From a virus: a stretch of DNA of 25,447 nt. Of this stretch, positions 17,026-22,351 are shown piece by piece (the stretch's first letter is position 1; every line of letters begins with the position of its first letter). A program made the translations under genes and the position numbers. The DNA is taken from the IMG/VR virus record IMGVR_UViG_3300017951_000113, positions 1 to 25,447 of that record; one strand, given 5' to 3'. The notes under the pieces were generated by a model that saw nothing but the letters and a program-made list of their open reading frames with translations, did no database searches and was not told the origin of the DNA.

Positions 17026-17351
17026 GAGTCGCAAGCCATCCAAATGTTGACACTTTCATCAGCACCAATAGAGGTGCATCGTGTTCTTACATAGCGAACA
17101 ATTCGAGGCTCGTAGTGATGGGCGTAAGAGCCTGTCGACTCGTGAGTTTTCTCTCCATCAAGAGAAAACCAGTTAGTGCCATCAAGGCTGCCCTCGTCGA
17201 TCGTCCTGACATTGCTGCCGACGATCGTGTGCGCAAAGGTGAATTTCGAGCCAGAGACCTCAACCGAGTCAGTGCTGGCGGTCGAGGTCAAGGTGCCAAG
17301 CTCGACAATATTGTCTCTTCGACTGGCCCAAGCACCATAAATTTCAGGCAT
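17022..17351 (-). CDS. Small beta-rich virion protein of unknown role
   Basis: A 109-residue protein between the gpFII-like connector and the tail completion protein, the place of lambda Z, but with no visible similarity to gpZ (about 190 residues). Residues 35-100 show the pattern FTFAHTIVGSNVRTIDEGSL, DGTNWFSL, RIVRYVRTRCTSI, which suggests a beta-sandwich similar in style to the head-cluster protein at 17681-18058 (both have an 'S.DG/N..W/F' strand and a late 'RYVR/RYAR' strand). No signal peptide or membrane segment. Coupled by ATGA overlaps to both neighbours. A structural role at the neck is likely from context only. Confidence 0.7.
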   Translation of the reverse strand: MPEIYGAWASRRDNIVELGTLTSTASTDSVEVSGSKFTFAHTIVGSNVRTIDEGSLDGTNWFSLDGEKTHESTGSYAHHYEPRIVRYVRTRCTSIGADESVNIWMACDS

Positions 17352-17641
17352 CAGTCCTTGGTCAGCATGATCCTCTTCAGCTTACCGTCGTCAATCAACA
17401 TGACCTCTCGCACGGTGTAATCAACACCAGCAACAGTCAATGTGTCCCCGTGGGAGACAGAGCTGAAAACAGAGGCAATCACAGTGACCCTGTAGTCAGT
17501 CGTCAGGACAAGGCCGTCAGCAATAATCTCGTCCGGCTGGTCCAGATAGCCAACACCACTTGCGCTGCTATGGACAACAGTCTCGGTAAAGCCAGGGGTG
17601 TCAAAGAAGGCCGTCAGGTCTTCAGTAAATGAGAGCGCCAT
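17351..17641 (-). CDS. Head-tail connector (gpFII-like)
   Basis: A 96-residue protein resembling the lambda gpFII family, which joins the finished head to the tail. Evidence is the N-terminal SFTEDLTAFFDTPGFTET, and the C-terminal hairpin HGDTLTVAGVDYTVREVMLI followed by DDGKLKRIML, which is the family's characteristic strand pair. I chose the ATG at 17641 (MALSFTEDL); a longer reading would need a TTG start inside the terminator stem. The start lies only three bases after the T-run of that terminator, so both transcription and ribosome access may be limited here. The stop overlaps the next start as ATGA. Confidence 0.85.
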   Translation of the reverse strand: MALSFTEDLTAFFDTPGFTETVVHSSASGVGYLDQPDEIIADGLVLTTDYRVTVIASVFSSVSHGDTLTVAGVDYTVREVMLIDDGKLKRIMLTKD

Positions 17642-17644
17642 ATG

Positions 17645-17668
17645 AAAAAGCCCCCGCAAAGCGGGGGC
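17645..17668 (-). terminator. Intrinsic terminator after the capsid gene cluster
   Basis: On the minus strand this reads GCCCCCGC, a TTT loop, GCGGGGGC, then TTTTT: an 8-base perfect GC stem followed by a T-run. It lies 13 bases after the stop of the head-cluster gene and ends three bases before the next start codon. The G-rich right arm would also be the only Shine-Dalgarno-like element for the next gene. Confidence 0.85.
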
Positions 17669-17680
17669 GGCAAATCAAAA

Positions 17681-18058
17681 TCAGGCGTACTTCTTGCGTG
17701 CTAGGCCAGTCACGCTCACAGCACCTGTGCCAGTGCCACCAGCAACAGTGATGACAACACGCGCATAGCGCTTGATCTCATCGGTGTTGACCACAAGGCT
17801 CTCAACGAGAGCGGTGTTTGCGGTGGTGGTGGTGAAGGCAGCATCAGTGACATCAGCAAAGGTGCTGTTGTCAGAAGAATCCTGCACCTTCACGGCATAG
17901 GTGATGCCAGAGCCGCCGGCTTCAGCATCAAGAATCAGGGTCATGTCGCCTTCGTAGTCCTGAAGGTCGATGCCAGTTTCGTTGCCAGTTGCAGCGACAA
18001 CGTCGTTAGGTGCAAAAGAAAGCACCGTCAGAGTCCGGCGAGTATTGCCGATACCCAT
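17681..18058 (-). CDS. Head-cluster structural protein, possible capsid decoration
   Basis: A protein of 125 residues, rich in Thr, Val, Asp and Gly and predicted by eye to be all beta. It carries AVKVQDSSDNSTFADVTDAA, then DEIKRYARVVITVAG and the ending SVTGLARKKYA. This pattern of a short repeat of strands with 'DSSDNSTF...RYARV' is common in small virion proteins encoded next to major capsid genes, and a decoration role is plausible but not shown. I chose ATG at 18058, which shares a base with the upstream TGA (TGATG) and follows GGAGG by 8 bases. A GTG at 18061 would add one Met. An intrinsic terminator begins 13 bases after its stop. Confidence 0.75.
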   Translation of the reverse strand: MGIGNTRRTLTVLSFAPNDVVAATGNETGIDLQDYEGDMTLILDAEAGGSGITYAVKVQDSSDNSTFADVTDAAFTTTTANTALVESLVVNTDEIKRYARVVITVAGGTGTGAVSVTGLARKKYA

Positions 18059-18288
18059 CACTTAGTCCTCCGTCGAGTGGTTTTAGGCTTTTCCGCCGCC
18101 TCCTCAGAAGGCTCTTCTTTGGGTGCAGCTTTAGCAGCGGCCTTGGGGGCAGCGGCTTCCTCTTTGAACTCAACAGCTTTGCCAAGTCCTAGGAGAGTCA
18201 CTGCATCAGTGTCACTGATTTCGAGAATGGAGCCCGCCTTGACGGGCTCCCCGGAAATCATCACTGACCTCAGAATTTGAACCTTCAT
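18058..18288 (-). CDS. Small head-associated protein, Ala/Lys/Glu-rich tail
   Basis: A 76-residue protein directly after the capsid gene, in the slot of lambda D/FI. Residues 1-42 (MKVQILRSVMISGEPVKAGS then LEISDTDAVTLLGLGKAVEF) form a compact beta-rich domain of a type common in phage head clusters. Residues 43-76 are a low-complexity Ala/Lys/Glu/Pro tail ending in TTRRRTK, which may contact DNA or the capsid interior. No enzymatic motif is visible. It starts 30 bases after the capsid stop, and its TGA stop shares one base with the ATG of the next gene. Its early coding region contains a perfect 8-base inverted repeat (18229-18250). The exact role is unknown. Confidence 0.75.
   Translation of the reverse strand: MKVQILRSVMISGEPVKAGSILEISDTDAVTLLGLGKAVEFKEEAAAPKAAAKAAPKEEPSEEAAEKPKTTRRRTK
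18229..18250 (-). other. Perfect 8-bp inverted repeat within a head gene
   Basis: Within the 76-residue head gene the minus strand reads GGAGCCCG, a 6-base loop (TCAAGG), and CGGGCTCC. There is no T-run, and the repeat lies 38-60 bases after the start codon. It could form an RNA hairpin in the coding region; a functional role is unproven. Confidence 0.55.
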
Positions 18289-18318: not shown

Positions 18319-20832
18319 TCAGGTGCCGTAGCAGAATGCGCCGGGCTGCTTGACAGCGAAGTCAACATCTTGCAGAGCAATGATGCGGACGGTGCCAGCA
18401 GTTGCACCTGCGTAAGGATCAACGGTCAGATCCAAGCCGGACCACATCGCCATGATCAGCTGCGAGAAGTCACCGAACAGAGCGTCGTTGTTGGCGAGCT
18501 GGTTCGACACGGTCACGGGGTAACCGTTGATTTCGTCGTTCTCGTAGACGAACTGGGCGGTGCCGCTTGCCTTCTCGGTGCTCTTCAGAGCGCCACGGGC
18601 GGAAGCGTTGATGATGTAGCGCAGGGCGCCTGCATCAGCGTTGGCGACGGCAACGTCGGTTTCCATCGCGATGTACTCAGCAAAGGTGCCGAAGCTGGTC
18701 AGAGTTTCGGTGCCGATGCCGGTGGTGTTGATGATGCCCAGAGGCTGGTTAGAGGAACCAGAGCCGTTCAGGCCAACACGGTCAAGCTCAAGAGCCAGGA
18801 CTTGAGCCAGGTCGTCGCGGACCATTTGCTCAACGTCGATGCTGGACTGCAGCAGGAGCTTTCTGGAGTAGTCAACAAAAGCACCACAAGTTTTGGGGCT
18901 GAGATTGACCTGCTCGATGGTCTGCTGGGACTCGGTGGGAGAAGACCCCTCCCCAACCCAATAAGCCGTTGCAGAAGACCCCTGCTTCGGAATTGAGATG
19001 TTGCCGTTGATTCCGCTCAGGGTGGTCATGCCGGCCTGGGCCAGAGCAAGACGGTTGCGGAGCAGATCGATGAAGCTGCCAGACAGCAGAACGTCGTCGA
19101 CGAGGTTGCCACCAGCGGTAGCAGTGCCGACGTTCAGGTCACGACGCAGCACCTCGTTGGGGACCACGATGCCGTTGGAAGAACGCTCGTACTGCTTGGC
19201 AGCGGCGTTGCCGACTTCGATCTCAAACTCAGCTTCCCGGCGAGCGGATTGATCGCCAGGGTTGGCCAGGAAGTTCAGAGCGCGAACAAAGCTGAAGCGC
19301 TTGACTTCCTTCTGAGACAGGCCGATGTCGTTAGAGGTGACATCGGTAGAGCGAATAGGCTGTTCCACTTGGGAGGTTCCGATTTTTTCGAGGAAAGCAG
19401 CACGGGCCTCATCGAGGGAGCTGTCTCCGTCGATCAGCTGACGTGCCAGGTCTGCCATCGAGTGCTGAGCACCCAAGGCGGTGATGGCGGCAACACGGTC
19501 TTTCTCAGCCTTTTTGGCCTCCGACCGGATCACCTCCAGGTTTGGAGTTTGTTCTTCCATCGCAGGAGCGGGGGTAGATGATGCGGTCAGAACCGCTGAA
19601 CGAGTTTCCTGCTCTTCAACAGGATCTTCGTTGTTAATAGTAGTGGCTTCAGGTTGAGAAGATTCAGGCATAGACGGCTCTTTTGAAAGAAGTGATCGGC
19701 CGATCCCAATTGTTGGGTCAGCTGGGATCGAAACCAAGCTCAATTCGTGAGGTGTCCAGCTAGTTGCAAGGACTCCTTCTTCGCGCTGCTCCACGTCATT
19801 GATGGAATAGCCAAACGAAATACCGCGCAAGATGCCGTCTTTCACGTCATCTAAGTACTGCTTGGCGAAATCAGAGCGCGAGAAGCGGATTTTGGCGTAA
19901 GCACGCTTCTTGTCCTCATCCAAGTAGGCCCGCTCAACAACACCCAAGACCTTGTCCGGGTCGTGGTTGAAAAGGAACGGGGCGCCATCGTTGAGGCGCA
20001 TGAAATCAGGAGCACCAGAAGAGTGGCTCAGGACCTCTTCACCGAAATAGCGCTTGACGGGATACTCGGAGCTGAAAGGAAACTCAAAACTCCGCTCGTC
20101 AAGACTGCGGATTTCGGTCGCCTCGGTGCGCTGCATCCGCTCACCAACCACGGCACGCTTCTGCTCGGGCTCTTCGGCGCGAATAGCAGCGATCTTGGTC
20201 AGAGTGCTGAACTTGTGCCCAACCTTCGTATCTGTTGGCTCATCATCTCGATAAAGAGTGATAAGAGCAGCAGGATCATCCTCAGTCCCGGTGATTGTGA
20301 AAGAGGAATCGGGAACATCGATGGTTCCGTCGCGCTCAATCCGATCGATCCGGCCCTCAGCACGGCCACCTGATGAATTCCAAGAGACAAAGTCTCCTGT
20401 CTTGAGAGCGTCAGGCGCCGCTCTTTGCTGTTCCTGCTCCATAGGGCTCAGAAGTTCTTCCTCATTATTGCTAATTAATTGTCTACCCTCTTGAGCTTTT
20501 TTGATCCTCTTGGCTCGCGCATCGGACCAGCTCTTGCCGGCGTCGCCTCCCCAAGCGGCCCATGCCACCCTTCCATTGCTCGGGTAGCCATCCTCTCCAG
20601 GGCTAAATCCCTTGCCCTGCTTGTCGACCGCATGGCGAGCAAACCAAGCCGACATGGTGATCACCGTGTCAGGGCTTAGCTCGTTGCCACTCAGGATCTG
20701 ACTGGCGCGGCGGGCAGCAACCTCAGTGCCGCCGCCCTCGCCATCAGCCTTCCAATCGCGATAACGCTGAGCCTCTGCTCTCATACCCTCGTTGGGCATG
20801 AGGTCGATCTCAACTCCGTTGACGCTTGCCAT
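18319..20832 (-). CDS. TUDOR-domain / prohead protease / major capsid polyprotein
   Basis: One 837-residue open frame with at least four modules. Residues 50-112 hold a motif often seen in phage head proteases (SAWFARHAVDKQ, GRVAWAAWGGDAG). Residues 143-214 match the HVA1/TUDOR-type domain (GDFVSWNSSGGRAEGRID, VGHKFSTLTKI). Residues 232-385 are an HK97-type (S78) prohead protease with likely catalytic His290 (FLFNHD) and Ser339 (RGISFGYSI), and the family ending PHELSLVSIPADP. Residues 430-500 are helical and resemble a scaffolding delta domain. Residues about 555-835 are an HK97-fold major capsid protein (GGNLVDD, YWVGEGSSPTES, QPLGIIN, GDFSQLIMAMWSGLDL). The protease probably cuts itself and the scaffold away during maturation. 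Start: ATG at 20832 behind CGGAG, overlapping the portal gene. Typical families encode protease and capsid separately, although fusions are known. Confidence 0.93.
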   Translation of the reverse strand: MASVNGVEIDLMPNEGMRAEAQRYRDWKADGEGGGTEVAARRASQILSGNELSPDTVITMSAWFARHAVDKQGKGFSPGEDGYPSNGRVAWAAWGGDAGKSWSDARAKRIKKAQEGRQLISNNEEELLSPMEQEQQRAAPDALKTGDFVSWNSSGGRAEGRIDRIERDGTIDVPDSSFTITGTEDDPAALITLYRDDEPTDTKVGHKFSTLTKIAAIRAEEPEQKRAVVGERMQRTEATEIRSLDERSFEFPFSSEYPVKRYFGEEVLSHSSGAPDFMRLNDGAPFLFNHDPDKVLGVVERAYLDEDKKRAYAKIRFSRSDFAKQYLDDVKDGILRGISFGYSINDVEQREEGVLATSWTPHELSLVSIPADPTIGIGRSLLSKEPSMPESSQPEATTINNEDPVEEQETRSAVLTASSTPAPAMEEQTPNLEVIRSEAKKAEKDRVAAITALGAQHSMADLARQLIDGDSSLDEARAAFLEKIGTSQVEQPIRSTDVTSNDIGLSQKEVKRFSFVRALNFLANPGDQSARREAEFEIEVGNAAAKQYERSSNGIVVPNEVLRRDLNVGTATAGGNLVDDVLLSGSFIDLLRNRLALAQAGMTTLSGINGNISIPKQGSSATAYWVGEGSSPTESQQTIEQVNLSPKTCGAFVDYSRKLLLQSSIDVEQMVRDDLAQVLALELDRVGLNGSGSSNQPLGIINTTGIGTETLTSFGTFAEYIAMETDVAVANADAGALRYIINASARGALKSTEKASGTAQFVYENDEINGYPVTVSNQLANNDALFGDFSQLIMAMWSGLDLTVDPYAGATAGTVRIIALQDVDFAVKQPGAFCYGT

Positions 20833-22351
20833 TGCTCCGTTTGCGATTGGGCTGAGGCTCCTCTGATTGAAGCAACTCCAGCTGGACGCCTTCGTCAGTC
20901 AAATCAAGGTCTTTGTCGAGTTTGATTCCGGCTTCAGCTGCAAGCTCTTGCTCGCGAGCAAGCTCGTTGACGTTGTCGTCATAGTCACCACCGGAGTAGG
21001 CGATGATCTGAGCCTTCGTCATGTAGCCGGCCTGCTCCGCCTCGCGGTAAGCCTTGACTTCCTTGAGAGGATCCACCCAGCTCCAGCCACGCGGCATCCA
21101 GCGAGGATTTTCGTACCGCTCAGGACGCAGCTCGTAATCAGGGAAGTTGCAGTAGCCGCTCAGCACCGCAAGCTTCAGCCACTCGCGATAAACCCTCATA
21201 TGAAGGTTGTCGATCAGGTACTTCTGCACCACGCGCCAGTGCTCGCGATCCTCCAGCAGGCTCAAGCGGCTGCTGCTGTAGTTGGTGTCGCTGAAGTCAC
21301 GGCTCAGGGTCTCGTACGAGCAGCCAAATCCAGACGCGAAGCGCCGCACCTTGTTTTTGACAAACATCTCGAACTGCTGGTCCGGCGAGTGGATGTCCGG
21401 GACGGTGATCTGCTCACCGGGTGACAGGTAGCGGAAGGTTCCAGGCTCGAACTCTGCAATCCGCTGGCTGTTCTCAACGTCGTCAGCGATCATCTCGCCT
21501 TCGTTGTTGGTGATGAAGCCCATGATGCTTGCGCCAGCACGGGCGCGGATCACAGCGGCCTCCTCGTAGCCTTGCAGCTGATGGGCATCTGCCATCACGC
21601 TGTGGAACCAAGGCACCCCACGGTTCTGACCCGGACGGTCAGGCATATAGAGGTGAATAACGTCGCTAGCCGGCAAAAAGACGTGCTTGACGTTGGCGCT
21701 GTGATTCCCTGAGAACCAAGTGTCCCCAGGGTGGCGAGTCAAGATCGCGTAGCGAAGCGGACGCCCCCACTCGTTGACCTCGACACCATTGCGCCATTCA
21801 TTGTTTTTGCTCGACGTAGGGCCTTGGTACGACTCATCCAGTAAGTCGCTCTCCAGCATTTGAAGAGCGATCGGCACCTTTGATTCGCCAAATGGGCGCC
21901 TAATGATCCGAAAAAGCGCCTCACCGGCCTCGCACATGGCGCCGGTGGCAAGCCACTCGAAGTCGTGGAAGCTATAGCGACCAGCTACGTCGCAGCTATC
22001 GGCCCTAGTCCAGTAGCCCCACTTTGCCTCAATCTCGCTATTGATCCGGTTGTCCCGCTTGTTGCCGCGCAGCTGGAGGACTTGAGACTGGAGCTTGATG
22101 CCAGTCCCGATCACATTGATCTGAGTCGTTCGCTTGGCTTGGCGAGCGTACGGATTGTTCCGCACCATCTCGCGAGAGCGATCTCGCAAGCGGCGAAGAT
22201 TGGTCCTGATTTCTGAGTCGGCACTGGCCTGCGTCGACAGCCAATCACTGGTTAGGCGTGAAACCATCGCGCCGTTGTACGCGCGTCGAATCACCCGAGG
22301 ATTTGGCTTGCCAAAGCCAAGAAAATCCATGACGCGAGTCCGAATACCCAT
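20810..22351 (-). CDS. Portal protein (lambda gpB family)
   Basis: Forms the dodecameric ring at one capsid vertex through which DNA enters and leaves. Its 513 residues match the lambda gpB family length. Recognisable parts are the basic N-terminus with NNPYARQAKRTTQINVIGTG (65-84), the stem-region motif DRPGQNRGVPW (238-248) typical of this family, RARAGASIMGFI (269-280), and a C-terminal segment WVDPLKEVKAYREAEQAGYM (425-444) seen in portals of this group. The last 30 residues are charged and low in complexity. It starts two bases after the gpW-like gene, behind a GAGG, and its 3' end overlaps the next gene by 23 bases, which suggests translational coupling of portal and capsid genes. Confidence 0.96.
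   Translation of the reverse strand: MGIRTRVMDFLGFGKPNPRVIRRAYNGAMVSRLTSDWLSTQASADSEIRTNLRRLRDRSREMVRNNPYARQAKRTTQINVIGTGIKLQSQVLQLRGNKRDNRINSEIEAKWGYWTRADSCDVAGRYSFHDFEWLATGAMCEAGEALFRIIRRPFGESKVPIALQMLESDLLDESYQGPTSSKNNEWRNGVEVNEWGRPLRYAILTRHPGDTWFSGNHSANVKHVFLPASDVIHLYMPDRPGQNRGVPWFHSVMADAHQLQGYEEAAVIRARAGASIMGFITNNEGEMIADDVENSQRIAEFEPGTFRYLSPGEQITVPDIHSPDQQFEMFVKNKVRRFASGFGCSYETLSRDFSDTNYSSSRLSLLEDREHWRVVQKYLIDNLHMRVYREWLKLAVLSGYCNFPDYELRPERYENPRWMPRGWSWVDPLKEVKAYREAEQAGYMTKAQIIAYSGGDYDDNVNELAREQELAAEAGIKLDKDLDLTDEGVQLELLQSEEPQPNRKRSNGKRQRS

Follow-up and report, generated by a model that had tools for sequence, protein, structure and literature searches.

In HK97, the protease gp4 and the coat protein gp5 are encoded by two separate genes, while in lambda (C/Nu3) and Mu (I/Z) an in-frame start inside the head-protease gene gives an abundant shorter product. 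In retroviruses, furthermore, the ratio of Gag to Gag-Pol is set by frameshift or readthrough. The head gene described here lies in the window, namely the whole stretch of 25,447 bases that was analyzed, which is an entire IMG/VR virus record giving neither host nor completeness. Like HK97, it has an S78 protease, a delta domain expected to be cleaved and a coat of similar size, but in a shared frame with a proposed nested start instead of in two genes. The nested product is the scaffold in lambda and Mu, whereas the one proposed here comprises scaffold and coat. As for Gag/Gag-Pol, the likeness is an analogy only; a minority long form would similarly bring the protease into the shell through a shared assembly domain, but the retroviral system has no internal start, and the proteins are unrelated.

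Closer to the window gene are the fused protease-major head proteins of PHROG 617 (e.g., those of VP882, phiHAP-1, R4C, RcRhea, ep3, and FoX1), which share with it the protease-delta-coat core and an ATG at the junction of protease and delta but are devoid of the N-terminal modules called A, X, and Tudor here; also, most of them have a recognizable Shine-Dalgarno (SD) sequence at the internal start, which the window gene does not. The nearest named relatives are the Synechococcus phages S-CBS1 and S-CBS3, and the virus is hence called a cyanophage. In both phages, gp04 (annotated as "major capsid protein") is, as in the window, one fused gene (836 residues) after the portal gene with an N-terminal module A, an S78 protease, delta, and an HK97 coat, and it is 45-47% identical to the window ORF over the whole length; unlike in the window, module X replaces Tudor. 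From the comparisons given below, we consider it probable that the window gene is a nested head gene, with the full-length protein and a delta-coat protein started at Met425 both produced from one frame.

The window gene is an 837-codon ORF (837 aa) on the minus strand, running from 20832 to 18319, and all its features given below are on the same strand. Based upon Pfam, PHROG, and the ORFs of relatives, it is organized as module A, Tudor, S78 protease, linker, delta, and HK97 coat (18319..20832). The ORF overlaps the end of a lambda-type portal gene (20810-22351) and is preceded by a homologue of terminase gpA and followed by connector and tail genes, which together indicate a siphovirus-like head module. 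In a scan of viral contigs, 188 relatives were picked through similarity searches, and 80 of them were fetched and combined with eight GenBank phages to give 88 ORFs, all of which (88/88) are a single uninterrupted frame. A sequence-only reading of this DNA had raised the concern that a sequencing error might hide a stop between the modules; this is rejected because the frame is likewise open in close relatives from many contigs that were assembled independently.

At the N terminus is module A (residues 10-115, 20488..20805), an unnamed head-associated module recognized from relatives and from its match to a segment of PHROG 2859 (E = 1.5e-25); no Pfam model matched it up to E = 1, and its predicted structure is of low confidence. 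Phages and haloviruses have this module in proteins of several kinds, namely head proteases, portals, and proteins that consist of it alone: it occurs beside S78, S78_2 (XkdF), and DUF2213 domains, within halovirus portals, and by itself in proteins of about 100 aa. Stand-alone copies of about 100-127 aa include S-CBS4 gp019 (L090:3420-3728), PaBG_148 (L091:3426-3758), and a protein of Vibrio phage 150E35-1 (L092:2872-3255); PaBG_148, which consists of module A alone, adjoins replication genes and is annotated as "putative DNA-binding protein." The next module is an Hva1_TUDOR-like SH3-type barrel (residues 138-218, 20179..20421), as supported by Pfam (Hva1_TUDOR, DUF2945, residues 146-192; E = 8.5e-6 and 26.2 bits versus the gathering cut-off of 24.1), by the strands in the window's own model, and by the fold of the homologous modules in a relative, L037, which are predicted as tandem Tudor/Agenet-like barrels (E = 1e-4, with low TM-scores). 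Two Tudor-like modules in tandem were seen in L037, L038, L039, L042-L044, and L053, and the L037 model resembles by fold the Agenet/Tudor tandems found in histone readers of eukaryotes.

The S78 prohead protease follows at residues 233-385 (19678..20136; assigned by Pfam, PHROG, and alignment), with the Peptidase_S78 match at 283-372 (E = 1.3e-10). Its His290 (codon 19963-19965) and Ser339 (codon 19816-19818) lie in conserved family motifs and are aligned in 15/15 diverse members of PHROG 617 as the predicted catalytic residues of the fused protease. Given that the full-length AlphaFold model has a mean pLDDT of only 42, it was used for helices and disorder only; it predicts disorder in the protease-delta linker and helices at residues 432-456, 460-468, and 473-486 of delta, where pLDDT is about 71-83 at residues 441-480 and lower elsewhere. 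The delta/scaffold region spans residues 425 to about 564 (19141..19560; predicted structure and alignment), and the mature HK97-fold coat corresponds to residues from about 565 to 837 (18322..19140), according to Pfam (Phage_capsid at 574-836, E = 4e-46) and the alignments with PDB 8gta and with the family. The closest solved chain, the R4C coat (PDB 8gta), has 268 aa and aligns to 574-832 only, whereas 629 residues are encoded by its gene; as is expected for HK97-type heads, the mature coat thus probably corresponds to the C-terminal part. The cleavage site would be near LRR/DLNVGTATAGG (cut between R and D), at about residue 564. The window gene has the S78 protease followed by an HK97-fold coat in one open frame that characterizes PHROG 617, and this family covers residues 241-837 (E = 6e-159). 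The sequence-only reading thus had the composition of the gene right: the single 837-codon frame (with no mention of the minus strand), the GRVAWAAWGGDAG region, which falls inside module A (about 10-115), a single HVA1/TUDOR-type domain (above the Pfam cut-off at 146-192), the S78 protease with His290 and Ser339 at these very positions, the delta-like helical stretch (helices at 432-486, from a model whose overall confidence is low), and the HK97-fold capsid were all recovered.

That reading also regarded the extra N-terminal modules as unusual, which was not supported, since many marine contigs, as well as CRP-811 and S-CBS1/S-CBS3, share this kind of layout. With A, X, T, P, D, and C denoting module A, module X, Tudor, protease, delta, and coat, the 88 ORFs were categorized as A-T-P-D-C (42, the layout of the window), A-X-T-P-D-C (21), A-T-T-P-D-C (6), A-X-T-T-P-D-C (1), A-X-P-D-C (3), and A-P-D-C (1), the remainder being shorter or truncated ORFs. 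The protease-delta-coat core is constant among the relatives, and the front, made of A, X, and zero to two Tudors, is a shuffled toolkit of accessory modules. Among the sequences compared here, this layout is uncommon in named phages but the norm in the marine clade of the window gene.

We then turn to the junction ATG, which was defined as the first ATG in frame downstream of the protease, irrespective of its SD strength. Over 114 dereplicated fused genes, the mean pairing energy of 10-mers with the anti-SD peaks at -4.5 kcal/mol at 3-6 nt upstream of this ATG and, a few bases farther in the upstream direction, has weakened to about +1, whereas the ATGs in the coat part gave about -1.3 without such a peak. 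The real leaders, furthermore, beat their synonymous shuffles (p = 5e-7), an enrichment that is partly due to the choice of amino acids. Two further scans covered 160 diverse loci, including those in many bacterial genomes. An in-frame ATG is present within 60 codons after the protease in 235 of the 236 testable fused genes; after dereplication (115), ATG was found in 95% of the 45-codon junction windows versus 71% of the control windows, and the best ATG had an SD of -5 or lower in 65% versus 19% (p = 1e-20), where the control windows are only partly independent between related genes. In VP882 (AGAGGTGCAGAA-ATG), R4C (CGGAGGACGCA-ATG), CRP-811 (AAGGAGAACACT-ATG), CRP-821 (AAAGGAGTGATCCC-ATG), and CRP-406 (GGAGGATGTTACT-ATG), the junction ATG ranks top of the 33-62 internal candidates. 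An internal ribosome-binding site hidden at the protease/delta junction is evident across the family from these sequence comparisons, and in the open-licence papers that we searched, a nested start of fused protease-coat genes was not found described.

In the window, the corresponding codon is Met425 (19558..19560), which is proposed as the internal start on the basis of homology to the SD-preceded ATGs; it aligns with the SD-bearing Met residues of CRP-811, CRP-821, and CRP-406 and is kept within three columns in 78/78 window-like genes. While an in-frame start with a ribosome-binding site is found in the family, the window has the conserved ATG with no SD and with synonymous constraint instead. 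Indeed, the SD of Met425 is the weakest among the 30 internal candidates of the window gene, and its use is hence argued from homology and constraint. The homologous junction codon likewise has no SD in S-CBS3, S-CBS1, and S-LBS1. The leader of Met425 is poor in G (0.10 versus 0.26 for the other in-frame ATGs) and accessible (0.53 versus 0.38). For cyanophages, the case of Met425 suggests a start that does without an SD. In the SD-less L117, L141, L147, L173, and S-LBS1 (L083), nearly G-free C/A-rich leaders of the CCCAACCCCC type abut the junction ATG and are a possible alternative initiation signal; L132, L150, L154, L186, L151, and L160 have in common a AACCTGAGGTTC-like palindrome abutting the junction ATG, with GAGG and a small hairpin.

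Other internal starts were less convincing. The sequence-only reading had suggested starts near residues 230 and 500; the proposed internal start lies at Met425 between the protease and delta and at neither of those positions. For Met233, the window has an SD-like leader (-7.7), but there is no conservation in L064, L069, or L072 and no synonymous constraint; a start near residue 500 is unsupported. Met388 has an SD-like leader in some relatives (e.g., L074) and is auxiliary at most because it is kept in only 61/77.

Met425 is embedded in a synonymously constrained element of the coding sequence (mRNA or DNA; codons 391-437, 19522..19662), where the relative pS is 0.21-0.48 with a relative pN of about 0.8-1.05. 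Nowhere else in the gene does synonymous divergence fall so low, with amino-acid divergence being normal here, and none of 5000 permutations reached this minimum; the four-fold sites of codons 397-437 are at 0.24 of the gene mean, again matched by 0/5000 permutations, and the synonymous minimum sits at the same place in comparison with two more distant groups. Folding predicts two hairpins upstream of Met425, hairpin 1 (AACGA..CCUGUU-GAAG-AGCAGG..UCGUU; 19599..19632) and hairpin 2 (GCGGU-UCUG-ACCGC; 19583..19596). In their stems, 98.3% of the cells are paired, and G-U pairs are tolerated, which favors RNA over a DNA palindrome. These hairpins are plausible only, because covariation was not demonstrable (0.076 versus 0.073 in shuffled data, 152/500) and the folding energy of the region is unexceptional within the gene; an Rfam search of the region gave no match. 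A smaller second dip (relative pS, 0.33) is located inside delta at codons 476-490 (19363-19407), where a GGAACAG might conceivably base-pair with the CCTGTT in hairpin 1.

If the head gene is nested as we favor, the ATG at 20830-20832 would give a minor 837-residue protein with the A-Tudor-protease-delta-coat composition, and Met425 (19558-19560) a major delta-coat precursor of 413 residues, equivalent to HK97 gp5. Because delta-coat is common to both, the two products could co-assemble, and the protease and the N-terminal modules would enter the prohead tethered to a minority of the coat subunits. The protease would then cut near residue 564 to leave a coat of about 270 residues, the remainder being destroyed or released; modules A, X, and Tudor, carried on the long form only, would be present in few copies per prohead and freed by the cleavage. 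Such a gene would explain how protease and coat are made in unequal amounts from one gene in a very widespread class of phages, and for the fused family, database entries of 600-1000 residues that are named "major capsid protein" probably represent two products, the abundant one being internally started. It had been argued from the sequence that a fusion makes protease and capsid in equal amounts and would require controlled cutting or internal starts; the latter is supported, whereas equal amounts are not obligatory because of the family-wide internal start. More tentatively, and with doubt outweighing confidence, the nested coat start in cyanophages may be SD-independent and governed by a conserved RNA element in the linker that sets the coat:protease ratio, with rare long subunits positioning the Tudor-like domain and module A at fixed places in the prohead, where these would recruit DNA, portal, or a host factor.

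Alternatively, the gene might encode a true polyprotein, in which all the coat subunits are full length, assemble, and are self-trimmed by their own protease with the internal start unused. S78 proteases normally trim the N termini of coats, as in HK97; the frame is uninterrupted in every fetched relative, and the junction linker, being predicted as disordered, might be cleavable. We nonetheless regard a polyprotein as unlikely, since it accounts neither for an SD peak at the proper distance from the junction ATG throughout the family nor for the synonymous constraint, and since 415 long subunits are implausible to pack. The R4C capsid is T=7 with 415 coat copies, and its paper mentions neither protease nor cleavage (PMC10276861). 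By a rough estimate, in which 110 Da per residue, a volume of 1.21 cubic angstrom per Da, a T=7 prohead, and a cavity of 42-46 nm are assumed, 415 full-length subunits would occupy 62-82% of the prohead interior, and those of a 1003-residue relative, for which packing is the least plausible, 80-105%; an all-long prohead would accordingly be very crowded.

The constrained stretch could, on the other hand, have a function different from initiation. A signal for transcription or RNA processing such as an internal promoter or an RNase site, producing a separate short delta-coat mRNA, would fit the constraint reaching about 100 nt upstream of Met425, which is more than a start site needs, and also the presence of hairpin-like sequences. 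No sigma-70-like promoter was found in the region, however, and relatives in other hosts have an SD there, which makes translation the common denominator; this explanation is improbable in our view, and even if a short transcript were made, the internal start would remain that of the coat. We give still less credence to causes that have nothing to do with coat expression, such as an overlapping gene, programmed frameshifting, or a DNA site for packaging or replication. Constraint by itself is indeed silent on its cause, and the second dip at codons 476-490 might be taken in favor of such a cause, but the examined frames contain stops, none of the alternative frames is open throughout the relatives that were compared, and the constrained site coincides with the homologous internal start.

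Apart from the head gene, two features of the window are worth mentioning. A GC-rich hairpin on the minus strand (17643-17672, GCCCCCGCTTTGCGGGGGC), followed by T's, lies immediately beyond the gene at 17681-18061, overlapping the start of the ORF at 17351-17659; it is likely an intrinsic terminator. Also, a tail-fibre-like ORF at 1152-2819 contains a run of near-identical repeats of the INAEVNASAAIAQSKLDLS type.
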